From Cephalotus follicularis (lineage: Eukaryota > Streptophyta > Magnoliopsida > Oxalidales > Cephalotaceae): DNA of 64,000 nt. The DNA lies in contig BDDD01000272.1 of NCBI GenBank assembly GCA_001972305.1, positions 186,001-250,000 of the forward strand, written 5' to 3'. The notes below the pieces were generated by a model. The model worked only from the letters and a program-made list of their open reading frames with translations. It was not told the origin of the DNA and did no database searches. Of the stretch, positions 1,734-40,523 are shown in pieces (position 1 is the stretch's first letter; every line of letters starts with the position of its first letter). A program made the translations under genes and the position numbers.

Positions 1734-1830
1734 TGTTATGACCCAAATTTCCATTAAAGATATTAATTATAGAAAATGTTTGCTATTGTGTGAATTGGCA
1801 AATAGTTCAAGGGACCCGTAGTATGACCCT

Positions 1831-1940: not shown

Positions 1941-1974
1941 GGCTAAGTGATGAGAAGGAAAAACTATCTAAAGC

Positions 1975-2190
1975 GCTGACGGTTTTATTTAAAGAGTCGA
2001 CGCTTTGGGCAACGGACGACGCTCTAATTTTAAACGTCGATGAGTTGAAGTCAAGTGTCTCTGTTGACCTGGATGAAAACTTAAAGCGATGAAACTTTGT
2101 AAGAAATTGTCAGCGCTTTAGTCGGGATAGAAGTGAAAAACTCAGGTCAAGCCCGTGACCAGCGACGCTTAGACAGAAAACGTCGACGCT
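1975..2190 (+). repeat. GTCGAC-core palindrome cluster, type AAGCGTCGACGCTT
   Basis: Six-base cores start at 1975, 1996, 2015 and 2036 (steps 21, 19, 21), with a later pair at 2161 and 2182 (step 21). Arms approximate AAGC/GCTT, and most departures are C-to-T or G-to-A changes at CpG. The cluster lies upstream of the TATA-like box, in U3. Function unknown. Confidence 0.8.
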
Positions 2191-2413: not shown

Positions 2414-2421
2414 TATTTAAT
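2414..2421 (+). promoter_or_regulatory. TATA-like box of solo LTR copy 1
   Basis: TATTTAAT lies about 40-50 bp upstream of the GA-rich leader and recurs at the same place in the sister copy (6379-6386). Its position between the palindrome cluster and the leader suits the U3/R boundary. This is inferred from position. Confidence 0.45.
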
Positions 2422-3966
2422 GGCTAAGAGGGTTGAACTCAGTGACTTTGGCTGAGAAAGAAAGTACTCCTGCTGAGAGTGAAGTGGAGAATTCGTGGAG
2501 AGAAAGAGAGAAAGAAATTCTAAAGCAAAGTAAGGAAATTCTATACCCATTCTCTACAAAGCATCCCCTGTTTTGCTTTAAATTATGCAGCAGATTGTTC
2601 TATTGATATCTTGTTCAATTATTGATGAAATTTTGAATGGTTGGATGTTCTGGAAACTTTACGATGTCCTCTTCAACTTTTATGCTTTGCCTGTTTGAAG
2701 ATGCTATCGTTTTCTTGATGAAAATTTATGTTTTAAACTGCTGTTTGGGTACTATTTTATTCTTATATTATGCAGAAACTTCTTTAAATCATATATTTCT
2801 CATTTATTGATGCAAAATTAAATGGTTGGATGTTTTGAAAACCTTAAGATGTCATATTTAATTGTTATGTTTTATGTATCTCGAAATTCTTTCGAATTCT
2901 TGATGAGAATTGATGTTTCACTTTACTGCTCATGCCCTGTTTTCATATGGAACTAGCCACTTTCAAAAATTCATAACGGATTCAATTCGCAACCAATTGT
3001 CATGATCTTGAGCTTTCTGAATTCTTAAATAGGTCTACTTTAATGTTTATGTTTTAAGTTTTCTCTGAAAATGCTTATTTCTATATGAATTATCAGTTTT
3101 CGTATAGCTATGCAAAACTGTTTTATGAACTCATTTGAGTCATTTACTCAAATGAAGAGAAAAGTTTATGAATTGTGAAAGAAATGCTATGAAATGATTT
3201 TTATGAATTATTTGAGCTGATCACTCAAAGTATATGATGAATGAACCTCCCTTGGATTGTGATACAAGGGGAATGGAGCGAAATGCTCAATGTTAATGGA
3301 GCGTAAAGTGTCACGGACATGCATGTGATGTAAGGATAGTAATCGGGGAGTGCACAATGCCCCGGTGAAGCGGTGTAAAGGGTTCATTAAGTTTTTTATG
3401 AATTTCATGTTTACGAAATGATCTAGTTATGATATTAACTAGAAAAGTAATATATTGTATGAAATGTTCTAGTTATATGTATTGACTAGAAAAATGTTAT
3501 GATGAAACGTGTTTACTATAAAAACACCTTACTGAGCTATTTTGAGATCATTCCTTTCAATGTTGTTTTCAAATAAAATGTTTTCAGGAAATGAATGAAT
3601 GGAGATTACGAGCTTAGAGGAAGCTCTTAAGAAGGAGTTTTTGTGAAAGAAAGGCTATGCGATGATATTTGCAGTAATGTTTTGATATGTAATAAGAACA
3701 AAGTTTTCCGCTGTATTATATGTTTATGTAGAAGAATGATCCTGTGTAATGTAGACGAACTGTATGGTTATGACATCTTTATATAAGATGATTATGTGGA
3801 AAGTTTGAATTTAAGATTATGTATGATGTTGCAAGACATGAGTTTATGATGTAGTGTACTTTTAGAGAATAGTACCAAAGGAGGTAACGTTTCACACCCA
3901 ACGTAACGCAACCGATCCTCGGAGTTCACTTTGAGCTATTAGCGAGCTCAAGTCGGGGTCGTTACA

Positions 3967-5821
3967 GGCAGCGTACATCCTAAACCGGATTCCTTCTAAA
4001 TATGTCCCCTCCACTCCTTATGAGGTATTTAAAGAGAGGAAACCCAACCTAAACCATTTGAAGGTTGGGACTGTCCAGCTTATATGAAGAAGCAAGAGGC
4101 TTCTAAGCTGGAGGCACGAGTGGATTGTTGCCAGTTTCTGGGGTTTTCTAAAGAGACAAAAGGATACTACTTTTGCCATCCCAGCGAACAAAAGGTTTTT
4201 GTTTCGTGACTGCCACATTCCTAAAGAAGGAATACCTGCTTGCAGGGAGTAGTGGGAGCAAGGTGGAACTGAGAGAGTTATCACCTGGTGAAAGCCCATA
4301 GGATGAAGAGGAATTGGAGATTGAACCCTCTAGAGACATAATTGGGGAAGGGCCCCAACCTGAAAAAGGATCTCAAAAAGGCACTCCTCTAATGAGGAGA
4401 TCAGGCCGAGTTTCAACAACACCTCAGAGATATGGTTTTCTCATTGAGGGCACTGATGAACTCAACAACATCGATGATGACAAGCCTGTCAGCTACAAGG
4501 AAGCAGTGAAGAGCACTGAATCCGAGGCATGGCTTGAAGCCATGAAATCCGAAATGGACTCCATGAACGCCAACCAAGTATGGAACTTGGTAGATGCACC
4601 TGAGGGTGTTAACCCTATTGGTTGCAAATGGATCTTCAAGAGGAAGATTGGAGTTGATGGTAAGATAGAGACTTATAAAGCGCGATTGGTCGCAAAAGGG
4701 TATAGGCAAAGACACAGAGTTGACTATACCGAAACTTTCTCACCAGTCGCTATGCTTAAGTCCATCCGGATATTGCTTGCTATTGCTGCTCATTATGATT
4801 ATGAGATATGGCAGATGGATGTTAAGACAACATTCTTGAATGGCTATCTTGAAGAGGACATTTATATGTCCCACCATGAGGGGTTTACATCCAAGGAGCA
4901 TCCACAGAGAATGTGCAAGCTCCAAAGGTCTATTTATGGCCTTAAGCAAGCATCTTGTAGCTGGAATATCCATTTTGATGAGACCGTTAAGACTTTCGGT
5001 TTCATCAAAAACGTAGATGAGCCTTGTGTCTACAGAAAATAGGATGGCCCAAACATCACTTTCTTGGTACTATACGTGGAAGACATACTAATCATAGGGA
5101 ATGATGTGGGTATGTTACAGTCCGTTAAAGTATGGTCATCCAAGAACTTCTCCATGAAGGATTTGGGAGAGGCTTCCTATATATTGGGTATAAAGATCTG
5201 TAGAGACAAATCTAATAGGTTACTAGGGCTCTCCCAAAGCAAGTACATCAACAAGATACTGAAACGGTATGGCCTTGAGAATTCCAAGAGTGGCCTACTA
5301 CCAATTGGTCAGGGAATTCACCTCTCAAAGATGATGTCTCCACAGACAAATGAGGAGAGGGCACACATGAGTAGACAGCCATATGCTTCAACTGTTGGCT
5401 CCATCATGTACGCCATGCTGTGTGCTAGGCCTGATGTCGCTTATGCCTTGGGCATGGCTAGTTGATTTCAGTCCGACCCCGGTGAGAAACACTGGGAAAT
5501 AGTCAAAGGGGTTCTCAAATACCTGAGAATGACTCAGGATACCTTTTTGACTTATGGAGGAGATAGTGAATTGAAATTCGAGGGTTATACCGACTCTAGC
5601 TTCAACAGTGATACAGATGATCACAAGTCCATTTCAGGATTCGTTTTCGTCCTGAACAGTGGTGCTGTGAGCTAGAAGAGTTCGAAGCAGGAAACTACTG
5701 CGGACTCCACAATGGAAGAAGAGTATGTTGCAGCCTCTAATGCAGCTAAGGAAGCTGTTTGGATGCGAAAGTTCATTACTAAACTTGATATGGTTCCTAC
5801 CATTGCCCGTCCGGTTGTGGT
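3967..5821 (+). pseudogene. pol: copia A integrase end, reverse transcriptase, RNase H (first part)
   Basis: The integrase C-terminal part (AAYILNRIPSK, then a GYYF region) is frameshifted before 4314. The reverse transcriptase is open at 4314-5042 and, after one stop, at 5064-5465 (motifs WKWIFKRK-like, ETYKARLVAKGY, QMDVK, IYGLKQAS). The catalytic YVDD box reads YVED at 5073-5084, so the first catalytic Asp is Glu. RNase H follows from about 5590 (GYTDSSF, HKSISGFVF), broken by a TAG at 5673-5675 in the Trp position before KSSKQ. The reading ends at 5821, where the second solo LTR enters. RT/RNase H would make the cDNA from the element RNA. Confidence 0.88.
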
Positions 5822-5951
5822 TGTAATAACCCAAGTTTCTATGTACGATATTAATTATGGAAAATGATTTCTATTGTGTAAATTGGCAAATAGTTTAAGG
5901 CACCCGTAGTATGACCCTAAAAGGCTAAGAGTTGACAAAACTGTCTAAAGC

Positions 5952-6151
5952 GCCGACGGTTTTATTGAAAGAGTCGACGCTTTGGGTAACAGTCGATGTC
6001 CTAATTTTAAACATCGACGCGTTGAAGTTATGTGTGTAAGTGACTTAAAGCGGCGAAGCTTTGTGATAAAGCGTCAGCGCTTTAGTCGGGATAGAGGTAA
6101 AAGACTCAGGTAAAACCCTTAGGCGCCGACGCTTAGAAGGAAAAGGTCGAC
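5952..6151 (+). repeat. GTCGAC-core palindrome cluster (solo LTR copy 2)
   Basis: Cores start at 5952, 5973, 5992 and 6013 (steps 21, 19, 21, as in copy 1), then 6053/6073 and 6125/6146. Arms are of the AAGC/GCTT type and differ mainly by CpG transitions. The cluster lies upstream of the TATA-like box at 6379. Confidence 0.8.
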
Positions 6152-6378
6152 GCTTTGCACTACAGACAAAACACAAAATCTGACTTTTTGGCATTTTGTG
6201 AGTAAAATTCTTTAATTGGGGACATGTGGCAGGACAGGGGAGGATGCTATAAGGTGTTATCTGGGGATGTAACGAGTGTAAACACTTGGATTGGTTAAAT
6301 TTTGTCACATGGGCTGCCAAGAGAGAGAATTGATTGTGTGAGAGGGGGGAAGAAACTTACCCCATAAGCCATCCTTCT

Positions 6379-6386
6379 ATTTAATG
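6379..6386 (+). promoter_or_regulatory. TATA-like box of solo LTR copy 2
   Basis: TATTTAAT, at the place matching 2414-2421 of copy 1, ahead of a GA-rich leader. Confidence 0.4.
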
Positions 6387-7925
6387 GCTAAGAGTGTTGA
6401 AACTCAGTAATTTCTGCTGAGAAAGAAAGTGTTCCTGCTGATAGTGAAGTGATGAATTCGTGGAGAGCAAAAGAGAAGGGAATTCTAAAGCAAATGTAAG
6501 GAAATTCTTTACCCATTCTCTACAAAGCTTCCCCTGTTTTTTTCTTAATTTTACAGCAGATTCTTTTATTGATAACTTGTTCAATTCTCAATGGATTTTC
6601 GAATGGTGGGATGTTCTGGAAACTTTAATATGTCCTCTTTAAATGTTATGTTTTGTATGTTTCAAGATTCTATCGTTTTCTTGACGGAAATGCATGTTTA
6701 AATTTACTGTTCAGGTACTATTTTATTTCTGGATTATGCTGCAGATTTTTAAAATCATATCTTGCTCATTTCTTGATGAAAAATTTAATGATTGGATGTT
6801 TTGGAAACCTCAAGATGTCTACTTTAACTGTTATGTTTTATGCATCTCGAAATTCTATCGAATTCTTGGTGTAAAGCTATGTTTTCTTCTACTGCTCATG
6901 TCCCGTTTTCTTATGCAACCAGCCACTTTCAAAAAAAATTATAGAGGATTCAATTCTCAACCAATTGTTATGATCTTGAGTTTTCTGAAATCCTCAAGAT
7001 GTATACTTTAATGTTTATGTTTTGAGTTTTGTCCGAAAATTCTTATTTCTATATGAATTATCCATTTTCGCAAAGTTGTGCAAAACTGTTTTCCAAAAGA
7101 TTTTTGAGTTAATTACTCAAATGATGAGAAAGGTTTATGAATTGTGAAAAAGATGTTATGAAATGATTTTTATGATTGCTTTGAGCTGATCACTCAAAGT
7201 AAATGATGAATGAACCACCCTTGGTTTGTGATCCAAGGGGAGAGGAGCGAGATGCTCAATGTTAATGGAGCCGAGCGTGCTCACGGACATGCATGTGATG
7301 TAAGGATAGTAATCGGGGAGTGCAAAATGCCCCGGTGAAGCGGTGTAAAGGGTTCATTAAGGTTTTTATGACTTTTATGTTTACGAAATTATCTAGTTTT
7401 GATATTAATTAGAAAAGTGATATGTTTTATGAAATGTTTCTAATTATATGTATGGACTAGAAAAAGTCATGATGAAATGTGTTTACTATAAAAACACCTT
7501 ACTGAGCTATTTTGAGCTCATTCCTTTCAATGTTGTTTTCAAATAAAATGTTTTCAGGAAATGAATGAATGGAGATTGCGAGCTTAGAGGAAGCCCTTAA
7601 GAAGGAGTTTGTGAGAATGAAAGACTATGAAATGATGTTGCATTAATGTTTTATTATGTAATAGGGATCAAGTTTTTCCGCTGTAATGTAAAAGAATGAT
7701 CCTGTGTAATGTAGATTAACAATATGATTATGACATCTTCATATAAGATGATTTTGTATAAAGTTTGAATTTAATGTTATGTATTATGTTACAAGACGTG
7801 AGTTATAATGTAGTGTACATTTAGAGAATAGTACCAAAGGATGTAACGTTTCGCAACCAACGTAACGCAACCGATCCTCGGAGTTCACTTTGAGCTATTA
7901 GCGAGCTCGGGTCGGGGTCGTTACA

Positions 7926-16859: not shown

Positions 16860-18546
16860 TGTAACGCCCGGTATTTTCCTGGATGTAATATTTCTATTTA
16901 TGATGTAATCATTAATCTTGATTTAATAAGAATGTTGAGTTTCGACTCGAAAGATGCTTAAAACCCTAATTACGGACTTGGAAATGGAATGTGTATGTTA
17001 AGCTTGAAACGACAACGTTCTGGGAGAAAGACATCGACGTCTTTTGGAAAGACGTCGACGTCTTTGTGGGCTAGGGCACACGTGATTGCATGGGCATGCA
17101 CGTCGACAACTGAAGAAGGCATCGACGCCTTCTTACAAAACGCAAAAGACATCGACGTCATGGGAAAGACATCGACGCCTTTGTGAGAATGGCCAGCACG
17201 TTCTTCGTAGGCAGAAATAACATGCAAGGAGGATTATTTAAGGGCCTTACCTACCGCCTTTTTGAGTGCGATTCGACGTGTTAACCATGTCTGCGTATTG
17301 CCAGGAATGGCCAGAACATGTCCTCACATGTAACATGCAAGGATTGATGCCATCCTAACATGCAATCTGCAAAGGAAGATTAGAATATGAAAAAGAATAG
17401 GCAGAAAGAGAGAAAGTGGGAGAGATTTCGGGAGTAGCTGTCCAATGACAGAAGAAATGTGTTAGGTGGGAGGAATCTGCATAAGAACTACCCTCCCTAC
17501 CTATCTCTCTCGTTTTATAACACCAGAAGAGAGAGAGAGAATTGGACAGTGTGTATTCCTCCATTGTTGAGTTCTTGGAGCTTGGAGCTTGGAAACACTG
17601 GTGCAGCTTCGGGACGGACCTAGAGAGGCTGCTGTGACTTCTTAGAGTACTAAAAGAGGTGGAGTTTAGATTTCTAACTTGAAATCAAAGGTAGGGGAAA
17701 GTGGTGGATTTATATGTGCATTTTAAGTTCTAAGTTAATGTATAGCATGGTGGATTGCATGTTAATGATTGGATTGAAATTCTGGACTTGCTATAGTGTC
17801 ACTGTGATGCACTAAATTGATCTTGCATGTAGGATTACATGAATTTGTGTGTGGGAATGGATTTGATAATTGCCTGGCGTGTTAAAACCGTGAAAACCCC
17901 GTTCTGTGTGGTAAAAGACATCGACGTCTTTGTAGAAGACGTCGACTTCTTTTCTGGGAGATCGTTGAACTGTGATGTCTACTTCAGATGGCCATTTTAG
18001 CCACTTGGAATTACCTGTTTGATTTCGGGTGGATGTTATGGTTGTATACATATTAACCAGTAGCATACCTTATACGTTTATGGAGTGAGATTCGTGGTTA
18101 TGATGGATTAAAATTTGATGTGCTTTTTAAAAGAGTAATTAAATTATTTAATTACCTGAGAATTCTATTTTGAAATTTTGAAATCTTATTATCTTTTAAA
18201 TTAACGTTTACCGCTTTTACATTTTATATTCTATAACCGTACTGAAGTTTGCTCAGTCGCGTTTTTCTTTCTATGTGGCAGGTTATCAGGAGCATTCGGG
18301 GCATGTGTGATGAGAGATTTACCCCTATGGCAGAGGATCATTTAGGAGTTTGATCCTATTGAATAATAATTGTTTTATGGTCGCATGTGGACCGAAGTTA
18401 TAAATAGGTTTTTTTATTTTTATTTTGAACTTGTGTTAAGGATTATGTGATTTCAGTTTTTGAACCACTGCGTTATTGAATAAAAGTTAATTCATGTCTT
18501 AATGAGTTTTATAAGTATGTCCTATGAACACTCCCACCAATAGGGA
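16860..18546 (+). mobile_element. gypsy LTR with GACGTCGACGTC palindromes
   Basis: Begins TGTAACGCCCGG. Three palindrome pairs (17033-17177) lie in U3, then a GA-rich leader near 17400-17550, the conserved leader block ending AAAGGTAGGGG (17647-17698), another pair (17920/17941), and a 3' part (18080-18546) nearly matching 39270-39720 of the gypsy C LTR. Its start does not resemble that LTR, so it is a mosaic of two LTR types. No duplication was found, and the 3' end is cut by the minus-strand LTR at 18547. Confidence 0.7.
17033..17177 (+). repeat. palindrome cluster, type AAAGACGTCGACGTCTTT
   Basis: The perfect 18-bp palindrome AAAGACGTCGACGTCTTT lies at 17048-17065. Core starts are 17033/17054, 17102/17121 and 17151/17171: three pairs with inner steps 21, 19 and 20, and pair-to-pair distances 69 and 49. 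A further pair lies past the leader at 17920/17941. Confidence 0.85.
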
Positions 18547-18977
18547 TGTCAAAATATATATAACGATCATTTTCCAAAACTCAAGTATCAAAATACTTGT
18601 AACAATACACTATAGTAAAACCCAGCTATTTGAACTACATTCAAATACCACAAAATACATATTTGTATATCAGTTCGCAATCTCTCGAAAGCCATTTTCG
18701 CAATCCTTTTGGAAACCATTTTCCAAACAACTAATGATTTTAATAAACCATTAACCAAACACATTTTCACAATCCTTTTGGAAACCATTCTCACAATCTT
18801 TCGAGAATATGTACATATCTCAAAACGTACATTTCACATAAAGTAATTATTTATGTAAATCACATTTGCACTTCCAAAAAGGGTAAAACATTTCACAATC
18901 CTCAATAACCAACTTGAAATACAATTTAACACAGTACAATATGCACACATATTCTCACAATGCAAAACGATCCCAAA

Positions 18978-19465
18978 CAGTCGGCTGTTTCTCACCGACA
19001 GTCGGCTGTTCTCCTTCAACAGTCGGCTGTCCCACACTTGGCAGTCGGCTGCCCTTAACCACCAGTCGGCTGCCCTCCTTGGCAGTCGGCTGTCCCTTGC
19101 CAATAGTCGGCTGCCCTCCTTGGCAGTCGGCTATCCCACACTTAGCAGTCGGCTGCCCTCTTCAGGTAGTCGGCTGGTCCAATACAATACACATTCCTTG
19201 CTGCTACCTGTGTCAGTATACCTGGTAGGGTGACACGTGGACAGTCGGCTGTTACCCAAAACAGTCGGCTGGACCACCCACAGTCGGCTGCCTTCCTCTG
19301 GCAGTCGACTACCCAATCAACAGGAACAAACCTGCAATTCCAGGCACAAACAGTCGACTGGCTCCAATGCCCAGTCGGCTGTTCTCCTTGGATAGTCGGC
19401 TGTTTCTCACGAACAGTCGACTGCTAGCCTTGGACAGTCGGGTATCCTCCCTGGACAGTCGACTG
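18978..19465 (-). repeat. phased array of 20 CAGTCGRCTG sites
   Basis: Sites start at 18978, 18999, 19020, 19042, 19063, 19083, 19104, 19124, 19146 and 19167, then 19242, 19262, 19281 and 19302, then 19351, 19372, 19393, 19414, 19435 and 19456. Steps within blocks are 19-22 bp, mostly 21. The 10-bp site is conserved while the spacers of about 11 bp are different, pyrimidine-rich sequences. Three sites are the perfect palindrome CAGTCGACTG (19351, 19414, 19456). Confidence 0.9.
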
Positions 19466-20001
19466 CCCCTACGGGCAGTGCCCAAAAACAGAAGCAAAAC
19501 ACACACTTCAATCCACATTTAAACCATTCAAAACCACAAACACTATCACCACAACACATATCCATGCTTCTATCACAATATCACATATGCATTTCACTCA
19601 TAACATCATTATAAATGACTTTGAATCACAAATATAGCTTTCCCCTACCTTAGAACTCCAAGTTAGGAGTTGCAATCCACCTCTTTAAGTCCTAGATCCG
19701 AGGTCCTTGCACCTTCAAACGTGTCCAGCAGCCTTCCACGAGTCCGGCTCCTCCACTAGTCTGAGCCTCCAAGCCACGGTTCAACACCAAGCTCCGTATG
19801 TCCTCCACATGCACACACACTTTCACTCTCAAACTCACCTTGAAACACACTTGAATCACAGAGGAAGATGGAGATTGAGGAGAGGAAGTTGTGTTTTTAT
19901 CAAGGAGACCCGGCCCCCCTCTCTGCCTTATGTCCACAAATGCCAAAACACCCTCTTTTCATCACTTAAAGGCTGACAGCACGTGGCTGTCTGGCGCATG
20001 G

Positions 20002-20133
20002 CAGTCGGCTGCCATGGCATGGTAGTCGACTGTTTCTGTCGACACTCAAAACAGCCGGCTGCTTCCTCACAGCAGCTGGCTGCCACCATCACCAGGGGAG
20101 TCCAGTCGGCTGCCTCCCTGTGGCAGTCGGCTG
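20002..20133 (-). repeat. three pairs of CAGTCGRCTG sites near the LTR start
   Basis: Starts at 20002/20023, 20052/20073 and 20103/20124: each pair is 21 bp apart and the pairs are 50-51 bp apart. Variants include CAGCCGGCTG and CAGCTGGCTG. This is the U3-side cluster of the minus-strand LTR. Confidence 0.88.
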
Positions 20134-20364
20134 CCCCCTGAACCAAAAGCACACTAACACACTTTTTCTTCCAACTTTCAACACACCAAGGGGAAAAACA
20201 CAATTCTCATTAATTTCACGTATAAAATTACATTTAAAAATGCAATATTACACCTTAACGAAAATCCCGGGCGTTACAATTTTCCAATTTACAATGTTAG
20301 CAATTTGTGTAAGAGATGTTAAGGTTATTGCGTGGATGTAAAAATGCAAGAAACTGGCCTAAGT

Positions 20365-20510
20365 GTTGATGCCTAGGATCAAAGCGCTGACGCCAAGGGA
20401 TGCATTTGCGTGTGTAAGAGACAGGCACACAAAGCGTCGATGCCAAGAAGTAGCGTCAATGCCAATGAGTGAAAATGGCTTAAGCGATGACGCAATGGGT
20501 AAGCGTCGAT
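20365..20510 (+). repeat. palindrome cluster, type AAGCGTCGACGCTT, U3 of gypsy B 5' LTR
   Basis: Pairs at 20365/20386, 20436/20455 and 20486/20505, with inner steps 21, 19 and 19 and pair distances 71 and 50. This is the same layout as the 3' LTR, although many individual sites carry CpG transitions. Confidence 0.82.
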
Positions 20511-21290
20511 GCTTAATGGCGAATCTCAGTCACGTTTAAACACTGACAGAAACATGTGCAAGAGGCCAGGTTGAGGCCACTTTTCAGGCACCTTAACATG
20601 CAATTTGAGACGTGTTGGACATGCTATCACGCCACCTGCATGCATCCTGACTACTAGCCTTCAGTGACTGAACTGGAAGGAGGTATGTGACACCTTTGTG
20701 TCATGCACATGAGAGGGGAGAAGGCAGAATCTGCCATGCATGCGGCAGAAGAAGGAAAGAGAGAGAGGTGAACGCTTCACACCATAAAACGTGTTCCTCT
20801 TCTCCTCCTTCGTACGCTATCTGGAGAGAAAGAAAGAACAAGAGAAACAGAAGGAGATCATAGAAAGAAACAGTGAAATATCAGGAGAGAGAGAGGAGAA
20901 GGAGAGAAACCATTCCTCCATTGTTAAGCCAACTTGGAGCTTGGAGTTGGAAACTGGACTGGAGCAGCTGGGCCTGGTAGAGCTAATGGGGAACTCAGAC
21001 ACTACTGTTCGAGGACTAAAAGTGGTGAAGTTTCAAATTCCTAACTTGGAACGAAAGGTAGGGGATTTATACTTGCATATTTGAGTTCAAGAATAGTGTT
21101 TTATCATTGATGAAATGTATGGTTTTCCTGGACTGTGAACTGTGATGTGATGCCATGGTTACTGTTAAATGATAACATGCCATGCATGTCGAATATTGAG
21201 TGAATATTGAACTAGAATGCATGTACCCTTGATTGATTTCCCCGGGTATTGTGTTAAACATGGAAGAAGATGTTCCTGGACTGCGTAAAC

Positions 21291-21580
21291 GTCGATGCTT
21301 AAGATGGAAGCGTCGATGCTTAGACCTGTTATACGAAGAACACATACCGATTTCACGATAAATGTCGACGCTTAGAGAAAGCGGCGATGCCCTGTTTGGA
21401 TATATGCGTAAAGGTGGAGACATGGACGTTGACGCCAGAGGTCCTACCTCAAAGCGTCAACGCCAAAGTGGTAACCGTCGACGCTTACGGATCCTAACCT
21501 TGAGACGTCGACGCCCAAGACATGTATTGACGCGTAAGGTTCTGGAGTAAGCTCTGACGCTAAGGATGGAAGCGTCGACA
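21291..21580 (+). repeat. second palindrome cluster, gypsy B 5' LTR
   Basis: Cores at about 21291/21312, 21364/21383, 21428, 21456/21477, 21507 and 21553/21574. The pairs step by 19-21 bp. The cluster lies downstream of the leader block, in what may be a leader intron. It ends at the foreign segment. Confidence 0.8.
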
Positions 21581-21715
21581 TTTAGAGGACATAGTGGGTC
21601 TGGTTTGGGGTATCATGGTGCTATGGGTTTTGGATTGATTGTGACTTTTGTTTTACTGTTAACGATTTCGATTACAGGTTAGCGGTGAGCTGTGGTTTGT
21701 TGTTTTTTTGTCTGT

Positions 21716-22787: not shown

Positions 22788-23306
22788 GTTGTTCATTTTC
22801 GATCTTTGGAGAAACCAAAGGATGATGATTTTTGTATGGAGCTGTAAGTACTTTTATCACTAACTGTTGTTCCACATTGTGGAAGAATCCTTGTTGTTGG
22901 GTAGATATAATCCATCTGTTTTCAACTTTCAAGGTCAAAGCTACATAGTTATGACGAGGTTGTGGAAAGAGTGGCTTGCCGAATTGGTTTGGATGATTTG
23001 TCGAAAATCAGGCTCACAGCTCACAACTGGTACTCTCAGCAACCTAAGCCTCAGCCAATTAATTATCGAGGATTAGAGAATTTATCAGATATGTTAATCG
23101 ACTACAGTCAGGTTGATAAGCAATATATTGAGTGCTTTCCTCATTTAATCTTCTCTCGCGTAATAAAAATTAACTCGTCATCTTTCTATTTGTTTCATTG
23201 ACAGAGGACTGACATTTTGTATTATGAAGTTTTGGACATTCCTTTGCCAAAACTACAAGGCCTAAAAAATCATAAAGTTGATTTCCATCAAGCTGCAAAG
23301 GAAGAA
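22788..23306 (+). pseudogene. UBP12/13-like: UBP12/13-like deubiquitinase fragment, three exons with introns
   Basis: Exon 1 (22788-22843) reads VVHFRSLEKPKDDDFCME. Exon 2 (22934-23111) joins in phase at a split codon and contains YDEVVERVACRIGLDDLSKI and YSQQPKPQPINYRGLENLSD. Exon 3 (23205-23306) reads RTDILYYEVLDIPLPKLQ and continues to KEE. The splice sites are present: GTAAGT, GTTGAT and GTATGT donors, each with an AG acceptor. The residues are those of the C-terminal ubiquitin-like domains of plant UBP12/UBP13 (orthologues of USP7), past the catalytic domain. No upstream or downstream exons are found, so it encodes no enzyme. Kept introns mean DNA-level capture, not retroposition. The exons have no stops. 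Confidence 0.85.
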
Positions 23307-25466
23307 GTATGTTTGAAAACTATACCAGTCTCTTCTTCCTATCCCTTATGTATGGATCAATTTTATCCTTATGATCTGGTAATCGTATTTATTTTATTCC
23401 ATGTGGTAATTCACAGAGAAAGCAACCAATGAAGAATGGAAGAATATGATGGACTTTATCTCTGATATTTCTGCAACCTTGGACTTTTATTGAGTGTTTT
23501 CTTAGTTTGTTTTTGTAATGGCCATATGGCCTTATTAAAACCTTTACTATCAAATTCTCTTTTTGCTGTGTTAAACAGGTTGATCCGAATTAAATCGGAA
23601 CCTTAAAGCCAAACTCGTTAGCTTCACGAGTACCTATTTGGAACTTATTCGGTTGGATTGTGGTTTCGTGAGGTGATTGTTTCGTGGGTATGGATTGTGA
23701 GTCACACTTTGAACTTGTTAAAAAAAACCAAAAAATTATCAGTAAACAAACTGTACCATTGTAAAAGAAGAAGAAAAAAAATATATAAACAGAACAAAAA
23801 CTAAAAAAGAAAAAGAATAGTGATCTATTGTAAAAAAAAAAAAAACAAAGCAAAGGAGAGAAAATAAATGAAAATTTATCGTGATAGAATTGGGGGATAT
23901 GCAAAATGAGCCTGAAGGTCTCAAACTATATAAGATAAATGAAAATTTATCATGATAGAATTACTCGTATTTTAATAACATATTCTTCATGATAATTTTT
24001 TATTTTCAAGTACTGTTAACATTAATATGTATTTTTGCATTATTTATGTAACTTAACAATTATTATAAAAATTTTGTTATTGTTAATTTATTAATCATCT
24101 TATGTAATATTAATCATTATTATATTAATATATAAAGACATATATACATGGTAGGTAGCGTAATGAATATTTGTTTTGTTGATAAAAAATCTAATTTATA
24201 TTTTTTTAATAAATTTCTCCAATATAAAAAAAATGATATGAATCCGTCTCTGATATAAATGATGTAACTTGATAAGAATTTTTATGAATTTTAATATTTG
24301 ACAAAGAAAAGTAATAAATAATCTAAATTCACAATTTAAAGGACAAAAATTATGGATAGTATGAATTTTATTTAGGTTTGTTACCAATAACTAATCAAAA
24401 TAAACATTTATAATTTCATGTATATTTCAGTCATTTTAAATGTCCACAACAGTTTTACAAAAATATATTTACCAAACCCATATTCACTGCAGAAGCACTT
24501 TTATATTGAATTTACCAAACGCTTGCAGCTTCCTCACAGCACTTTTTACAAAAGCACTTTTACTAAAAGTACTTTCAGAAATCACTTTTAGAAAACACAC
24601 AGCATTACCAAACACACCCTATCTGCGTGACAGAGGTTGCCATGGATGGCTAGTGGCAGGGTTAGGCCCTAGGGGCTAGGAGATGGCCGGGGATACCCAC
24701 AGTTGATTACTTAGTTGTTGTGCTACTGTTGACTTGCTTGGAGCCGACCGAAGATGGGGTTGAAGTGTGGAGTGCGACGTTGGGGCCAGGAGATGGCGAC
24801 GCTCTCGTACGTACTGATTGAATTGAGTGGTCCTTTGAGAACATGATTGCTGGATTGTGTTGATGTAGCCCTAATAGGGTTGCACCTGTACTGTGAATAT
24901 ACATATAGATATATATGTATATACTGTTATATATACTGTACTGCATCACTGTGCATCCATTCGTGACATGCATTATTATTTACCATAAACTGTACATATA
25001 TCTTCTCTACTTAGCCAAGTGAGGACAAAGGCTAACCCCCTACAATTTCAGATTGATGCAGTGGGACTCACATGGACAAGCCTGGAGAAGAATGAAGTTG
25101 TAATAATGTTATCCGATGGACTTGTATTTCCTGTTGGAGTTATTAAACTGTTATTTTAAACTTGGAACAATGTCTATTGTATTTGATGGATAATTGTTAA
25201 GTATGGATTACTATATTGAATGAGATTTGATGGATAATGTTTTGATCACGCTCCGTTTGAGGGCAATTAACAATGGAAATATTGCATTTTATTAACATCT
25301 AGTATGGGATGCTTGTTACGTTATATTTTCAGCTTATATCTTGAATGCTTTCGCAGATATTAACCGTTTGAAAAGTTTTAAATTATTCGTAAAATTGCAT
25401 AAGCTGAATATATATGTTGATTGCCACCACCTATGTGTCATATACGAAAATGGGGTGTGACAGCAG

Positions 25467-25579: not shown

Positions 25580-26640
25580 AAATGGACAGAAGGACACGTG
25601 CGAGAGCTAGAACTGTGGAGAGGAATGCCCCCCAAGAGGCAAATATCCCTCAAGAACCAAATGACAGGAGGGAACCGTTAGATTGCATTACCGATTAATT
25701 TCAGCAGCAAATGGTTGTTAATGCTGCTCATGCGAAGGAGATTCACCGCTTTACGCTAAAGCTCAGCCTCGACACAGGGTTCCTGATCATTGCCCACGTG
25801 AGGATGGGAATTCATTTGGGAGAAATCTGGAGAGGTTTATGAGACAGAACCCCCCTAGCTTCAAGGGAGAACTTGATGCTACTATTGCCGAGAGTTGGCT
25901 ACAAGACCTCGAGAAAATCTTTGAAGTAATGGACTGCACGGATGACCAAAAGTTGAAGCTTGTTGTATATCGACTATGGGGAGAGGCCACTCACCTGTGG
26001 GAGATGGTCAAGGCAAAGTGGGAGTCAGATGGACTCGACAGTACATGTGAGAGGTTCAATTGGGAGTTCCTTAATACTTATGTACCCTGGATTGAGCAAG
26101 AATGGAGAGAGATGGAGCTCTTGGAGTTGCGTCAAGGAGAGATGACTGTGGCCGAGAATCAGGCCAGATTTATGGAGCTAGCCAGGCATTCAGCCTATCT
26201 GGTGGCAGACGATAAGAAGAAAATCTGGAGATTCTTGAAGGGCCTACGACCAGATCTTTTGTCAAGGATTAGGGCCATGGAGCTGGGAACTTTTGTTCAA
26301 GTTGCTCAAAAGGCAAGATTGTTGGAGAGCATATCTAGCGAAGACCGTGCAGAGAGGGCTCGTATACAGCAGAGCAAGCAAAGCCCTACTCAGTCTAGGC
26401 CAGCTTCATCGAAGTGGCAAGTGGTTCCCCATCGAAATCATCAAGGAACAAATCTCAATAAACAGCTTCACAGGGTTCTCCCAACCAGGGTAGCAATGTG
26501 AGGTCTGGAGTCTGTTTCCATTGTGGTCGTGTGGGCCATCAGCATAAGGATTGTTGGAAGATGAACTGATTGTGTTTGAGGTGTGGGGCATCTGGTCATT
26601 CCGTGAAAGATTGCCCGAAGAGTCAGACAACAGTGCCTAG
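25580..26640 (+). pseudogene. gag: gypsy B gag (broken)
   Basis: The N-terminal basic region starts around 25582 and hits a stop near 25700. After a frameshift the retrotransposon Gag core is open from before 25839 to 26501 (PPSFKGELDATIAESWLQDL, then RFMELARHSAYLV and FLKGLRPDL). The open frame then leaves the true frame. Two zinc knuckles follow at about 26513-26555 (CFHCGRVGHQHKDC) and 26578-26616 (CLRCGASGHSVKDC), with a stop between them at about 26566. Gag would package the RNA. Order and motifs are Tekay-like. Confidence 0.85.
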
Positions 26641-26762
26641 GGGGACGACGAGTAGTAGTGGTGCTGCAGCGGGATCTTCATAGAGGAGGGATACCGGCAA
26701 GGGCATCATGAAAGGTAGAATTTTCACCCTTACATAGACAGAAGTTCCAGAGTCTACTTCTG

Positions 26763-29700
26763 TTGTTGGAGGTACACTATATGTCTATGGTTTTTTCTGC
26801 TAGAGTATTGATGGACCCTGGGGCATCGCATTCATTTATTGCCTCACATTTTGCATCATGCTTAGATGTAACGCCTGATTGTATGCCATATGGGCTTGAT
26901 GTGAGTACACCTTCTGGAGATTCCATGTGTACAAATTCAGTGTACAAAAGCTGCGAGATTTCTATGGAGAGTGTTCCACTATATGCGGATCTAATTGTAT
27001 TGCCCATTTGTGACTTCGACGTCATCTTGGGAATGGATTGGCTGCCAGCCCATCGTGCTCGCATGGACTGTTACAGCAAGACAGTGGATTTTTGTCTGCA
27101 CGACGGTATTGTTTTCCAGTTTAAGGGGGACAAAGGATTTTCTACGCCGATTATATCCTTCATTCGTGCATCGAGGTATCTTGAGAAGGGATGCGAGTGG
27201 TATCTGGCATATGTGATTGACAGCAGGAAGGAGAAAGGTATAAGCCTTGAGGAAATTCCCATTGTAAATGAATTTGCTAATGTATTTCCTGCAGATTTAG
27301 TGTCCTTATCATCAAAGAGGAGTATTGAGTTTGTCATCGACCTCGTGCCTGGTACAATGCCTATTTCTAAGGCACCGTATAGAATGGCTCCTACGGAACT
27401 GAGAGAATTGAAACTGCAGTTGCAAGATTTGATTGATAAGGGCTTTGTTCGACCCAGTGTTTCCTCGTGGGGCGTACCAGTTTTATTTGTGAAGAAGAAA
27501 GATAGGTCGATGAGGCTATGCATCGATTATTGAAAGTTGAATAAGGCGATGATCAATAACAAGTATCCTCTTCCACACATCGAGGAATTGTTCGACCAAC
27601 TACAGGGGTCAAGAGTATTTTCTAAACTCGATTTGAGATCGGGTTACCATTAGCTGAGGGTAAGGGAAGGAGATGTTGAGAAGACTGCCTTCTGGACACG
27701 GTATAGTCACTACGAGTTTCTAGTAATGCCGTTTGGTGTCACCAACGCACCGACAGCATTCATGTCATTGATGAATGATGTATTCTGACCATACATGGAC
27801 CAGTTTGTGGTAGTGTTCATCGATGATATATTGATATATTCAAGGAACGAGGAAGAGCACGCATACCATATGAGAATAGTTTTAAAGATTCTCAGAGAAC
27901 AGCAGTTGTACGCCAAGTTCGGCAAGTGCAAATTTTGGCTTGACTATGTGATCTTTCTTGGTCACATAGTATCCGGAGAGGGTTTGACGGTGGATCCATA
28001 GAAGACAGAGGTTGTGCAGGATTGGCCACAATCGAGGAATGTGGTCGAGGTACGTAGTTTCCTTGGATTGATAGGGTATTATCAGAGGTTCATCCAGAAT
28101 TTTTCAAGGATAGCCGTGCCATTGACACAATTGACCCAGAAGAAGACCTTGTTTGTCTGGGATGAGGATTGTGAAGTGAGCTTTCGGGATTTGAAGGACC
28201 GGTTGATTTTCGCTCCTATATTGGCATTACCTGATGGTAATGAGGATTTTGTAGTGTACAGTGATGCTTCGGGTAGAGGTTTGGGTTACGTGTTAATACA
28301 ATGTGGTAGAGTGATTGCTTATGCTTCATGGAAGCTAAAGCTATATGAAGGGAATTACCTTACGCATGATCTCGAACTGGAAGCTATTGTGTTTGTTCTT
28401 CAAAAATGGAGACATTATTTGTATGGAGCGCTGTTTGAGATATTCACTGATCATAAGATTCTGAAGTACCTGTTATGCAAAGATGCACTAAACATGAGGT
28501 AGCGAAGATGGGTGGAGTTCTTTAATGATTATGATTGTACCATCCAGTACCAACTTGGGTAGGTGAATGTTGTTGTTGATGCATTGAGTCGTAAAGCTAT
28601 TATAGCTAGTACGATGGTGTCTCAGTGGAGGATGCTGGTGGATTTCCAGAAATGGACTTCGTTTGCACGATCACCTGGAGTCTTTATTGCTAGTAATCGA
28701 GTACAGCCAGCATTGCTTGACGAGATAAAGAATGCTCAGATGTATGATCCCGAGTTGCAGGAGATTTGAGAGAATCTGGGACCGGAGTCCGATTTTCAGA
28801 TGCATCCTGATGGTATATTAAGGTTTCGTGGATGGGTGTGTCTTCCAGATGAAAATGGGTTTAATAGTGAACTACTACATGAGGCTCACAAATCTCAGTA
28901 CAGTGTCCATCCTGGTAGCACCAAAATGTATCAGGATATGAAGAGGAATTACTGGTGGTCCAACATGAACCGGCAAATTACGGAGTATGTTGCTAAGTGC
29001 TTGACTTACCAGAAGGTCAAGGCCGAACATCAGGCAGAGTTGAAATGGGAACATCTGACTATGGATTTTGTTTCTAGTTTTCCGTTGACACAGAATCGTC
29101 ACAATGCAATGTGGGTCATTGTTGACAGACTTACAAAATCAGCTCACTTTCTACCTACACACGTTATTGATTCAGCGAGCAAGTTGGCTCAGCTATATAT
29201 AAAGGAGATTATGAGGCTGCATGGTGATCCTGTTAGTATTGTGTGTGATCGAGACTCGATCTTCACTTCCAACTTTTGGAAGAGATTCCGATACCAAGTT
29301 GAACCTCAGCACAGCTTTTCGCCCACAGACAGATGGTCAGTCAGAGCATACCATCCAGACCTTGGAGGATATTCTCCAAGCATATGTGATTGACTTCACT
29401 GGTACTTGGGAAGATCATATTCCCTTGATAGAGTTTTCGTACAATAACAGCTATCATTCAATCATTGGTATGGCTCTGTACGAAGCTCTTTACGGACGGA
29501 AATGTAGATCGCCTATCTGTTGGGATGAGGTTGGCGAGCGACTGGTGCTTGGGTTGGATCTGGTGGAGGAGACTTCTGAGAAGGTCAAAGTTATCAAGGA
29601 GAAGTTGCTTGCAGCTCAGAGTCGGCAGAAGAGCTATGTCGACAGTGTGAAAAGGAGACCCTTAACTTTTGATGTTGGGGATCATGTGTTTTTGAAAGTT

Positions 29701-30090
29701 TCTCCTTGGGAAGGTGTGCAAACATTTGGGAAGAAGGGCAAGTTAGGTCCATGCTACATTGGTCCTTTTGATATTTTGGAGAGAGTTGGGGAGGTAGCTT
29801 ATCAGCTCGCCTTACCTCCTGCATTGTCGAATATACATGATGTCTTCCATGTATCGATGTTGCGAGGTTATATCTGAGATCCATCACATGTCTTGGATTA
29901 CGACTCAGTTTCTGTGCAGGATGATTTGTCTTGCGAGGAATTGCTTGCAAGGATTTTAGTTTGGAAGACGCAAGTATTGAGGAACCGGGCCATTTCTATG
30001 GTGAAGGTTCAATGGCAGTTTCACCAACCTGATGAGGCTACTTGGGAACATGAGGATGATATTCGAGAGCGTTACCCTCACTTATTTTAG
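26763..30090 (+). pseudogene. pol: gypsy B pol: protease, RT, RNase H, integrase, chromodomain-like end
   Basis: 26763-27533 has the protease (MDPGASHSFI, catalytic Asp at 26814, Pro in place of Ser/Thr; then VILGMDWL) and the RT start. RT continues past a stop to FIDDIL, with both catalytic Asp codons intact at 27822-27827. RNase H (28014-28502; [10 protein letters not shown]) is broken by stops near 28501 and 28560. Integrase (28800-29877) has HHCC with the last Cys changed (CLTYQ) and a short deletion just after it; the core keeps MDFV, CDRDS and TDGQSE across a frameshift near 29300. The C-terminus (29890-30090; KVQWQFHQPDEATWEHE) is chromodomain-like. The order RT-RNase H-integrase-chromodomain defines a chromovirus. 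Confidence 0.88.
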
Positions 30091-30300
30091 TAATGTTTAA
30101 ATTTCGAGGACAAAATTTGTTTGAAGGAGGGGTGTATGTAACGCCCAGGATTTTCATTTGATGTACTGTTGTAATTCTCATTGTAATTTTATCATAAATT
30201 ATTGAGAATGATGGATTTTCAAATTTACAATGTTGACAATTTGAGTAAGGGATGTTAAGATTATTGTATGGATGTAAAACTGCAAGAAACTGGCTTAAGC

Positions 30301-30446
30301 GTCAACGCCTAGGATCAAAGCGTCGACGCCAAGGTATGCATTTGAACGCGTAAGAGACATACACGCAAAGCGTTAACGCCAAGAAGAAGCGTCGACGTGA
30401 ATGAGTGAAAAAGGCATAAATGCTGACGCTATGGGTAAGCGTTGAC
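30301..30446 (+). repeat. palindrome cluster, U3 of gypsy B 3' LTR
   Basis: Pairs at 30301/30322, 30372/30391 and 30422/30441, with inner steps 21, 19 and 19 and pair distances 71 and 50. The core at 30322 is the full GCGTCGACGC. Others read GTCAAC, GTTAAC, GCTGAC or GTTGAC. Confidence 0.85.
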
Positions 30447-31223
30447 TCTTAATGTTGAATCTCTGTCACATTTAAACACTAACAGAAACATGTGCAAGGG
30501 GACAGGTTGAGGCCACTTTTCAGGCGCCTTAACATGCAATTGGGGACGTGTTGGACATGCTATCATGTCACCTGCATGCATCCTGACTACTAGCCTTCAG
30601 TGACTGAACTGGAAGGAGGTATGTGACACCTGTGTGTTATGCGCACGAGAGGGGAGAAAGAAGATACTGCCATGCATGCGGCAGAAGAAGGAAAGAGAGA
30701 GAGGTGAACGCTTCACACCATAAAACGTGTTCCTCTTCTCCTCCTTCGTACGCTACCTGGAGAGAAAGAAAGAAAGAGTGAAACAGAAATAGATCATAGA
30801 AATAAACAGTGAAATATCAAGAGAGAGAGAGGAGTAGAGAAACCATTCCTCCATTGTTGAGCCAACTTGGAGGTTGGAGTTTGAAACTGGACTGGAGCTG
30901 CTGGGCCTGGTAGGAATATTGGGGAACTCAGACACTACTGTTCGAGGACTAAAAGAGGTGGACTTTCGGATTCCTATCTTGGAACCAAAGGTAGGGGATT
31001 TATACTTGGAAATTTGAGTTGAATGATAGTGTTTTATCATTGATGAAATGTATGGTTTTCCTGGACAGTGAACTGTGATGTGATGCCATGGTTACTATTA
31101 AATGATAACCTGGCATGCATGTCGAATATTGAGTGAATATTGAACTGGAATGCATGTACCATTGATTGATTTCCCCTGGTATTCCGTTAAGCACGGAAGA
31201 TGGTGTTCCTGGACTGCGTAAAC

Positions 31224-31565
31224 GTCAACGCTTAAGATGGAAGCATCGGCGCTTAGACCTGTTACGCGAAGAACATGTACTGGTTTCACGATAAACGTCG
31301 ACGCTTAGAGAAAGCATCGACACCCTGATTGGATATATGTGTAAAGGTGGAGAAATGGACGTTGATGCCTGAGGTCCAACCTCAAAGCGTCGATGCCAAA
31401 GTGGTAAGCGACGACGCTCAAGGATCCTGACCTTGAGGCGTCGACGCCTAACACATGTATTAACGCGTAAGGTTCTGGAGTAAGCCCTGACTCTAAGGGT
31501 GGAAGCGTCGATGCTTATAGGACATAAGCGTCGATGCCTAGAAGTTAAACGTCGACGCTTAAGCT
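31224..31565 (+). repeat. second palindrome cluster, gypsy B 3' LTR
   Basis: Cores at 31224/31245 and 31297/31316, then several to about 31560. It includes the perfect 14-bp palindrome AGGCGTCGACGCCT at 31436-31449. The cluster lies downstream of the leader and its donor-like GTAGGGG. Confidence 0.82.
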
Positions 31566-32821
31566 ACTTTTTGGATAATTTCGCTTAGATGACGTGCGAT
31601 GACCCTGAATTAAGCCTAGATGCAATTGAGCATATGTTTGCATTGCATATTGATCTGTTAATTGAACTTTGGATTGAAAGGCGATTGATTTCTAAAAGTG
31701 TTTTATCATTTTAGAAATACATGCATGATTTTGAACAAATCATTATTTTGTACGAAAATGTATATTTTCGAATGGTTGGAAAAATAATTTCCAAAGATTG
31801 CGAACTGTTTATAGGATTTTCTAGACAATGAAAATGTATTGTTTCAAGTGTTTATAACTTTTAAACGACTTGAAAAACGGACTGATATATATTTGACAAA
31901 TATATTTGATCAAGTAATTATGTTATAAAATTGATTGAATTGGACGGTGATTGGTACTGCTGTCGTATTAGCTGCGTGGCGGAGGTTGCCACGGATGGCT
32001 AGTGGCAGGGTTAGGCCCTAGGTGCCAGGAGATGGCTAGGGATACCCACTGTTGATTACTTAGCCGTCGTGCTAGTAACCTGTACTATTGACCTGCTTCG
32101 AGCCGACCGGAGACGGGGCTGAAGTATGGAGTGCGACGTTGGGGCCAGGAGATGGTGACGCTCTCGTACGTACTGATTGAATTGATTGGTTCTTTGAGGT
32201 CATGATTGCTAGATTGTGTTGATGTAGCCCTGATAGGGTTGCACCTGTACCATGAATATGCATATAGATATATATGTATATACCGTTATATATACTGTAC
32301 TACATCACTTTGCATCCATTCATGACATGAATTATTATTGACCTCGAATTGTACATATATATTCTCTTCTTAGCCGAGTGAGGACAAAGGCTAACCCCCT
32401 ACAATTTTAGATTGATACAGTGGGACTGACATGGACAAGCCTGGAGGAGAATGAAGTTGTAATAATGTTAACTGATGGACTTGTATTTCCTATTGGAGTT
32501 ATTAAACTGTTATTGTAAACTTGGAACAATGTTTATCGTATTTGATGGGTAATTGTTGAGTGTGGATTATTGTATTGAATGAGATTTGATGGATAATGTT
32601 TTGATCATGCTCTATTTGAGGGCAATTAACAATGGAAATATTGAATTTTAGTAACATGTAGTATGGGATGCATGTTACGTTATGTTTTCAGCTTATATCT
32701 TGAATGCTTCCGCATATATTAACCATTTGAAAAGTTTTAAATTATTCGTAAAATTGCATAAGCTGAATTTATATGTTGATTGTCACCACCTATGTGTCAT
32801 ATATGATAACGGGGTGTGACA

Positions 32822-37435: not shown

Positions 37436-37579
37436 GTCAACGCCCTTGCCGTAAGCGTCGACGCCTTAGCACCTGTATCAGTATTCTTTTAGTAGTGAAA
37501 TACGTCGACGCCTTAGCCATAAACGCCGACAATTTTGTTGAAAAAGAGTTAGGCGTTGACGCCTTGTTATAACGTTGAC
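37436..37579 (+). repeat. palindrome cluster, U3 of gypsy C LTR
   Basis: Pairs at 37436/37457, 37504/37525 and 37555/37574, with inner steps 21, 21 and 19 and pair distances 68 and 51. The site at 37457 is AAGCGTCGACGCCTT. This is the same three-pair layout as gypsy B and the LTR at 16860. Confidence 0.85.
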
Positions 37580-38171: not shown

Positions 38172-38406
38172 GTTGACGCCTATATCGTATACGTCGACAT
38201 CTGTGCATAGAAAAACTTTTTTCATCGTCTTGCATGTATATATGCGTCGACTGTTTTAGTTTCCTATCGACGCCTTAGCCAAAACCATCGACGCTTTGTT
38301 ATGAGCGTCGACACTTTTGTCGTGTATTGTCATGTTTTTGTCGACGCCTTCCTTCAGCGTCAACGCTTGAGTCGTAAGCGTCGACGCCTATGTCGTGAAT
38401 GTTGAC
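38172..38406 (+). repeat. second palindrome cluster, gypsy C LTR
   Basis: Cores at 38172/38193, 38246/38266/38287/38307 and 38340/38359/38380/38401, with steps 19-21 bp within each set. The site at 38246 (GCGTCGACTGTTT) has a left arm of one type and a right arm of another. Confidence 0.85.
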
Positions 38407-40066: not shown

Positions 40067-40131
40067 GTCAACTACCAAGAAGAAGCGTCGACAGTTTACA
40101 AAGCGTCGACTGCCTATTTTAAAGTGTCGAC
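40067..40131 (+). repeat. GTCGAC sites with mixed arms
   Basis: Cores at 40067, 40087, 40105 and 40126 (steps 20, 18, 21). Arms combine AAGC on the left with CAGTTT or TGCC on the right, for example AAGCGTCGACAGTTT and AAGCGTCGACTGCC: a half-and-half form between the AAGC and CAG types. Confidence 0.82.
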
Positions 40132-40523
40132 AGTTTGCCTTGGTTATGCGGTGAAATTCCGTAAGTGTCGACTAATTTCAAGACAAACGTTTTAGCCAAA
40201 AAGTGCCAACGCGTTTAAGCGTTTTTGTCGACAGTTAAAGCCCATTTTCTTTGTTAATGAGTTTAACCGGTGACGCTTCGTGGTCTAAGCGGCAGCGCTT
40301 TGGGGCTAAAGAGGCGACTCTTAGCGCTTAACCTCCGACTCTTAAGGAATATTTCTCAAAAATTCCAGTTGTTTTGTCGTTTAGCGCATTAATAATTTTA
40401 AGAAAGGACGCGTGTCGAGCAACGGGTGGAAGGCGGTAAAAATTCTAGCCGCCTTAAGTAAAAAGACGCCACATGTCATTTTTTTATGGTGAAGAGTGAC
40501 GTGGGGCGGCTGAAGACTCTCCC

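Follow-up and report, generated by a model that had tools for sequence, protein, structure and literature searches.

Arrays of paired GTCGAC-type palindromes in the LTRs of six retrotransposon families of Cephalotus follicularis

Palindrome arrays in a nest of LTR retrotransposons

The analyzed window, a 64,000-nucleotide stretch of Cephalotus follicularis DNA (assembly GCA_001972305.1, contig BDDD01000272.1, positions 186,001 to 250,000 of the forward strand), is a nest of long terminal repeat (LTR) retrotransposons whose LTRs were placed by self-comparison and inspection of their ends. LTRs of six families, here called A to F, carry arrays of sites with the palindromic core GTCGAC or near variants of it. 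These arrays are real and non-random: GTCGAC occurs 40 times in the window versus 6.05 times expected, a count reached by none of 100 shuffles. Of these exact copies, 34 are located in eight LTR copies of the six families (A, B5, B3, C, D, E5, E3, and F; numerals mark the copies of a family), one in LTR family G, and five in the other 44.8 kb. The LTRs are arranged as follows.

1734-3966, plus strand: family E copy 1, solo LTR, target site duplication GGCAG
5822-7925, plus strand: family E copy 2, solo LTR, target site duplication GTGGT
16860 to about 18551, plus strand: LTR A, starting with TGTAACGCCCGG; right end inferred
About 18552-20278, minus strand: LTR D, single copy; left end uncertain
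20279-21593 with a tail at 24620-25462, plus strand: LTR B, 5' copy (B5), without its first 78 bp and broken at 21593
30137-32821, plus strand: LTR B, 3' copy (B3), running from TGTAACGCCC to GGGGTGTGACA
37292-39723, plus strand: LTR C, placed by self-comparison and ends
From about 39757, plus strand: LTR of family F; start guessed
41954-43502 and 48025-49557: family G, used as comparison family

Sites were accepted at a family-matrix score of at least 6 and a spacing of at least 12, and the limits of the arrays were chosen by eye. In total 111 sites were scored (A, 8; B5, 16; B3, 18; C, 16; D, 26; E, 8 in each copy; F, 11), which form 13 arrays, the first ones of A, B, and C lying in the unique 3' (U3) part of the LTR.

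1975..2187, plus strand: family E copy 1 array, eight sites in four pairs
5952..6151, plus strand: family E copy 2 array, eight sites in four pairs
17033..17176, plus strand: family A U3 array, six sites (17033, 17054, 17102, 17121, 17151, 17171), consensus AAAGACRTCGACGTCTTT
17920..17946, plus strand: family A second array, one pair with cores at 17920 and 17941, ~410 bp downstream of a TATA-like box
18980..19463, minus strand: family D second array, 20 scored sites, mostly 20-22 bp apart
20004..20131, minus strand: family D first array, three pairs at offsets 0/21, 51/72, and 101/122
20365..20510, plus strand: family B 5' LTR U3 array, six sites in three pairs
21291..21579, plus strand: family B 5' LTR second array, 10 scored sites
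30301..30446, plus strand: family B 3' LTR U3 array, six sites in three pairs
31224..31556, plus strand: family B 3' LTR second array, 12 scored sites
37436..37579, plus strand: family C U3 array, six sites in three pairs
38172..38406, plus strand: family C second array, 10 scored sites
40067..40339, plus strand: family F array, 11 scored sites with mixed arms, longer and more irregular

The main rule of these arrays is the spacing of neighboring sites, which is stronger than the three-pair layout. When GTCGAC with at most one mismatch was counted (90 of the 238 such words lie inside the 13 arrays), 45 of the 77 adjacent gaps within arrays measured 19-22 bp and 29 exactly 21 bp; both copies of B and of E enter this count, so these gaps are not all independent. 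Random placement in the same arrays (5000 runs) gave means of 6.6 and 1.6 and maxima of 17 and 8, respectively. When matrix-scored sites were used and each family was represented by a single copy, 21 bp was the length of 33 of the 55 gaps not exceeding 24 bp; this analysis, like those of information, divergence, and consensus symmetry below, leaves out B5 and E5. Nearly every scored site (106 of 111) has a neighbor 18-23 bp away. A distance of 21 bp corresponds to two helical turns. The gaps between pairs group loosely near 30, 40, and 50 bp.

A motif-agnostic dyad scan of the window was swamped by TATA-type runs. Other palindromic 6-mers linked at 19-22 bp outside the arrays were mostly AT-rich runs (ATATAT with up to 10 links), CCATGG and TAGCTA being also linked at this distance near 51.66 kb within a tandem repeat; three shuffled windows yielded 2-3 such links. 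A search for DNA patterns in which two cores lie 21 bp from each other gave at least 120 matching stretches in viral contigs and 60 in genome contigs. These matches were rejected as relatives of the arrays and taken as chance in GC-rich DNA (the 60 genome-contig titles are bacterial).

In A, B, C, D, and E copy 2, 133-176 bp separate the LTR start from the first site. This distance is larger in E copy 1 and F (~243 and ~312 bp, both by subtraction), where the first site follows a GC-rich block. In A, B, C, and F the first array is located 158-481 bp upstream of a TATA-like box, and in A, B, and C the second array is found 406-834 bp downstream of it. The GC-rich block of ~100 bp is common to E copy 1 (about 1830-1945) and F (39850-39964), upstream of the arrays, with 80% identity between the two over 1768-1945, and is absent in E copy 2. 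In LTR D, ten CAGTCGGCTG-type sites at 18980-19176 form a near-regular 21-bp array that was also called as a 41-bp tandem repeat.

Layout, core, and arms

The original prediction had described one layout of three GTCGAC-core pairs in four LTRs (A, both B copies, and C). Each of its 24 sites scores as a member of the family motif at the position given (lowest score 7.1), and its pair-to-pair distances of 69/49, 71/50, 71/50, and 68/51 are correct. The sites are GTCGAC-type rather than exact GTCGAC, which only six of the 24 are; some sites in B5 have two mismatches, many of the inexact cores look like products of CpG decay, and symmetry ranges from 2 to 8 of 8 pairs. The layout is likewise present in all four LTRs, but because the two B LTRs look like the ends of one element, they represent only three families. 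Features beyond that description are the second arrays of A, B, C, and D, the families D, E, and F, and the 21-bp spacing within pairs.

The six U3 sites have offsets of 0/21/69/88/118/138 in A, 0/21/71/90/121/140 in B, 0/21/68/89/119/138 in C, and 0/21/51/72/101/122 in D. If the families were independent, the agreement among A, B, and C would be expected in ~0.001 of trials (0.002 under a looser rule) in a test that draws inter-pair gaps from the other arrays, and the spacers align no better than shuffles in six of six LTR pairs (A, B3, C, and D; P 0.17-0.74). The layout is therefore kept across A, B, and C, as had been proposed. Over their first 77-80 bp, the starts of LTRs A and B match at 72% and those of A and D at 74%, and LTRs B and C match at 81% over 36 bp around the first pair. 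Judged by these matches, the LTRs are probably related, with a layout that persisted in A, B, and C after the spacers had diverged.

The consensus sites read AAAGACRTCGACGTCTTT in A, TAAGCGTCGACGCTTA in B, AAGCGTCGACGCTT in C, AAAGCGTCGACGCTTT in E, and CAGYCGACTG (element sense) in D, those of F being mixed. Information pooled over equally weighted families peaks at ±1 and ±3 (1.3-1.9 bits), and divergence between families at ±4/±5 (0.57-0.72). The family consensus arms change largely, though not wholly, symmetrically. They are complementary at ±5 and ±7 in six of six families, at ±4 in five (not F), and at ±6 in four (not C and D); the consensus pair at ±5 is A-T in A, G-C in B, C, E, and F, and C-G in D, and two-sided changes of the consensus arms are found at ±5 (A and D) and at ±4 and ±7 (D). 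Site by site, no covariation of the two arms was detected within families (0.577 versus 0.568 in shuffled data, P 0.31).

Arms follow the LTR, not the slot they occupy in the layout. Among A, B3, C, and D, arm difference is 0.37 within an LTR (n = 60 site pairs), compared with 0.633 for the same slot (n = 36) and 0.619 for other slots (n = 180) between LTRs, which bears out the earlier view of a common core with family-specific arms. The more particular contrast drawn at the time, with GAC/GTC arms in A and GC/GC arms in B and C that drift could hardly explain, was overstated. GAC/GTC arms are present on both sides at three of the six U3 sites of A, but the rest comprise GAC/GCC, GGC/GCC, and one site unlike either, and GCC-type half-sites occur in A, B, and C. 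A right arm GCC is frequent in B and C, often as GCCTA or GCCAA in B. The arm difference between A and C (0.41-0.48, versus 0.39 among sites within C) makes the argument against drift too strong for the contrast of A with B and C. In register, A and B differ by symmetric transitions at ±5 and ±6, equal to a one-base shift of AAG, and the right arms of A and C differ at +5 only. The step from A to B and C is thus small and involves no new motif, because the arms of A and C come near to the likeness found within C and A itself holds GCC half-sites. The real and clearest arm contrast is provided by D, a minus-strand LTR that the original prediction did not include. The core GCCGAC of D resembles the core of the dehydration-responsive element (DRE).

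After insertion, decay has been no slower at the sites than elsewhere in the LTR. Between the two LTRs of B, C-to-T type CpG differences amount to 17/40 at sites versus 14/33 outside, and all differences to 45 of 256 bases at sites versus 98 of 1056 outside; for the two copies of E the corresponding counts are 8/22 versus 9/42 and 21 of 128 versus 256 of 1854. With CpG loss no less frequent at the sites than elsewhere, nothing suggests that the sites of these copies were kept unmethylated.

Coding capacity of element B and neighboring features

Coding domains were assigned in element B, and A, D, E, and F have no assigned coding region.

25467: primer-binding site (PBS)-like site of element B, just after the tail of the 5' LTR
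25722..30093, plus strand: coding region of element B, decayed, in several open reading frames (ORFs); gag, protease, RNase H, integrase, and SH3_Tf2-1

The five sense ORFs scanned in B match only gag, RVP_2 protease, RNase H, integrase, and SH3_Tf2-1 in Pfam, and RNase H precedes integrase, which is the Ty3/gypsy order. A putative chromodomain-like end was seen by eye (frame 0 of 29215-30136), and the element presumably resembles the Tekay/Del lineage. The 30 best matches of the protease ORF are Cephalotus follicularis proteins (72-82% identity over 63-85% of the query).

The first gag ORF begins 255 bp past the start of the PBS-like site, leaving about 245 bp between them, and the frame of the integrase C-terminus stops about 45 bp before the 3' LTR. 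A self-encoded factor similar to the VANC proteins of VANDAL elements, brought in as a parallel by the original prediction, was not seen in B, where gag-pol takes nearly all the space from PBS to 3' LTR; this result covers the sense ORFs of one decayed copy, antisense ORFs not having been scanned. Among five ORFs scanned in element C, the longest antisense one (33327-33926) matches no Pfam family. Neither for ORF 28770-29390 of B nor for an ORF of the element at 46419-47429 were relatives found in viral contigs.

Several further observations concern the elements themselves. The ~440-bp tails of LTR A (18111-18549) and LTR C (39283-39719) are 90% identical, whereas the U3 spacers of A and C cannot be aligned; with tails alike and U3 spacers not, this suggests LTR recombination between the two families. 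In element B the 5' LTR is interrupted between its middle and its tail by the segment 21594-24619. This segment contains an ORF (22911-23198) that matches a USP7 ICP0-binding domain (Pfam E 3e-9) and may be a fragment of a captured gene. The solo LTRs of E are 85% identical over ~2 kb aligned and flank copia-type coding DNA (RVT_2 at 4302-5039). The word CATGCATG, which we take to be of the RY-element type, occurs 12 times in the window versus about 1.6 expected; five of these copies lie in the LTRs of B (20735, 21181, 30671, 31114, and 31720) and seven elsewhere.

Candidate explanations and known systems

The LTRs of the six families appear to carry arrays of cis-regulatory dyad sites for one or several dimeric DNA-binding proteins, homogenized within each family, a reading to which we assign a probability of roughly 0.55. 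The kept layout, the unalignable spacers, the common core, and the family-specific, two-sided arms make co-ordinated sites for a dimeric protein the best reading. The suggestion of several co-ordinated binding sites thus fares well, and the arm contrast is strong for D but small for A against B and C. The protein would bind as a dimer, and adjacent dimers, separated by two helical turns (21 bp), would sit on one and the same side of the double helix. GTCGAC would be the core common to related proteins, while family specificity would be set by the bases at ±4 and ±5 and to a lesser degree at ±6, both half-sites shifting together because the proposed dimer reads both. Sites and pairs could be duplicated or copied locally, which would let the arrays of a family grow and become homogenized. 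Protein binding, a host-encoded protein, and an effect on transcription are all predicted here; a host protein is the simpler guess because a self-encoded regulator was not seen in the decayed copy of B. We know of no named plant transcription factor that fits the sites.

A number of points count against this interpretation. The rule of the layout test was framed once the layout had been seen, and the site centers derive from matrices fitted to those same arrays. D has a layout (0/51/101) distinct from the one shared by A, B, and C, and those of E and F are different once more. Helical phase of the between-pair gaps is weak and non-significant (best R 0.41, P 0.054), and because these gaps are not clearly in phase, the same-face rule is limited to the inside of pairs. 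Consensus pairs are mismatched at position 2 in D, 3 in A, 4 in F, 6 and 8 in C and D, and 9 in B, C, D, and E, and there are only three or four arm types. The sites are also directional: arms that are short on the left and long on the right were found at 6 of 16 sites in B5, 5 of 18 in B3, and 4 of 16 in C, with no case of the reverse, and the D core reads GCCGAC in element sense at 18 of 26 sites and never the other way round. Such directionality is expected of duplicated direct repeats even without binding. The TATA-like boxes, finally, are pattern matches only; there are three additional candidates in LTR C, and in D and E copy 2 the scan yielded no box.

Directionality is also among the observations that agree with concerted evolution without function, in which slippage multiplies a short, roughly palindromic unit and template switching distributes copies of it through the LTR, so that different variants of the unit spread in each family and the layout is left over from descent. 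The tracking of family rather than slot by the arms (0.633 for the same slot versus 0.619 for others) fits such a process, as do the partly tandem structure of the second D array (41-bp period, 4.2 copies, 79% matches, with a 21-bp period also called) and the downstream pair of A, which nearly repeats the first U3 pair of A. Slippage alone, however, should alter spacing and drag spacers along, whereas A, B, and C keep their layout with unalignable spacers, and independent drift of half-sites does not predict joint changes at ±4, ±5, and ±7, other positions being asymmetric. We therefore treat non-functional amplification as a possible but not a likely account of the arrays. That the palindromes were instead selected as hairpins, folding in RNA or single-stranded DNA and serving as or attracting small interfering RNAs (siRNAs), seems improbable. 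Predicted RNA folds do beat 60 shuffles each on both strands in the 11 arrays folded out of 13 (z -1.6 to -14.0; the second array of B5 and E copy 1 were left out), and an siRNA role has been proposed for the LTR palindromes of maize Sireviruses, on which small RNAs are reported to be in excess (Bousios et al., 2016, as cited in PMC10760457). Fold energies do not discriminate, however, because any palindrome folds, and the center, which would form the loop, is the most conserved part while the arms vary. Selection for hairpins finds no support in the arms either, because within a family the two arms of a site show no correlated change (P 0.31), in a comparison whose power is limited by decay after insertion.

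A protein encoded by the elements themselves, acting as a family-specific anti-silencing factor or activator that co-evolves with the sites it binds, in the manner of VANC in VANDAL elements, is hardly more convincing. Motif amplification in non-coding DNA is shared with the VANC targets (PMC5735166), and an extra ORF has been reported for Tekay elements of sunflower (PMC12844716). The room in B, however, amounts to only about 245 bp before gag and about 45 bp after pol, the longest antisense ORF of C has no Pfam match, and CpG decay at the sites is not lower than outside. In VANC anti-silencing, binding to the motif leads to loss of DNA methylation, a matter on which the CpG decay counts bear only indirectly. 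A bolder extension of the dimeric-regulator interpretation would have the Ty3/gypsy-type families share one array grammar (21-bp pairs, three U3 pairs, and a second array) while specificity at ±4 to ±6 changed with the elements, each family having its own paralogue or co-evolving factor; this would be the retrotransposon counterpart of VANC target divergence, and we consider it speculative and rather unlikely.

If regulatory arrays of the proposed kind exist, they would amount to a testable promoter rule for plant LTRs, with a conserved spacing grammar, a common core, and changeable arms. They would raise the questions of which proteins of the host recognize the promoters of retrotransposons, whether different families divide these proteins among themselves, and whether copia and gypsy elements reached palindromic boxes independently. 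Three or four arm types within one genome would be a good set for finding a binding factor, which for the boxes of Sireviruses could not be named by the authors of a 2010 study (PMC2829016).

Host-factor sites in plant LTRs are known from the heat-responsive element of ONSEN and the W-boxes of EVADE, where host factors are recruited and drive transcription (PMC12786077). The arrays described here resemble them as sites within LTRs for which the same is predicted, and differ in that families of a single genome have different sites. A reported integration preference for palindromes (PMC6911290) was considered as well and rejected, as it does not explain arrays inside LTRs. The target motifs of VANC proteins are amplified in non-coding DNA, differ between related elements while changing together within an element, and evolve by tandem repeat formation (PMC5735166). 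The LTR arrays likewise consist of a repeated non-coding motif that varies from one related family to the next and shifts as a set inside each (compare PMC5735166 and PMC10398659), and their dynamics resemble those of the VANC targets. VANDAL elements, however, encode their own binding protein (PMC5735166; PMC10398659), a gene of which kind was not seen among the sense ORFs of B, and the word "palindrome" is absent from the main text of PMC5735166.

Closer still are the repeated-motif (RM) boxes of Sireviruses, palindromic motifs in the LTRs of Ty1/copia elements; they number eight or more and are placed chiefly in the upper LTR half, upstream of the TATA box (Bousios et al., 2010, PMC2829016). 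Their sequence differs between elements, no binding factor is known according to that study, and its authors raised the possibility that minor sequence differences switch the factor that is bound; the list of boxes includes CGGTCGACCG for a Vitis element (PMC2829016). The arrays in the window are similar in having many palindromic, CpG-bearing boxes with element-specific sequence and diverged flanks (cf. PMC2829016), 8 to 26 of them per LTR, clustered upstream of a pattern-found TATA-like box in A, B, C, and F (-481 to -158). In contrast, a CGG-CCG core is found in 12 of the 13 elements listed for RM boxes, which were called Sirevirus-specific within a Ty1/copia comparison (PMC2829016), while the core here is GTCGAC or a near variant (mostly GCCGAC in D), and the carrier B is a Ty3/gypsy element. 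The 21-bp pairs, the shared layout, and an array downstream of the TATA-like box are further traits of the present arrays; a spacing of RM boxes is not given in the parts of PMC2829016 that are drawn on here. A description of such arrays in Ty3/gypsy LTRs was not found among the papers listed in searches of an open-access library. The Sirevirus RM boxes are the closest known relative in kind, the arrays of B not being members of that group, and the GTCGAC-type arrays thus represent a variation on the known theme of palindromic boxes rather than a new kind of feature.
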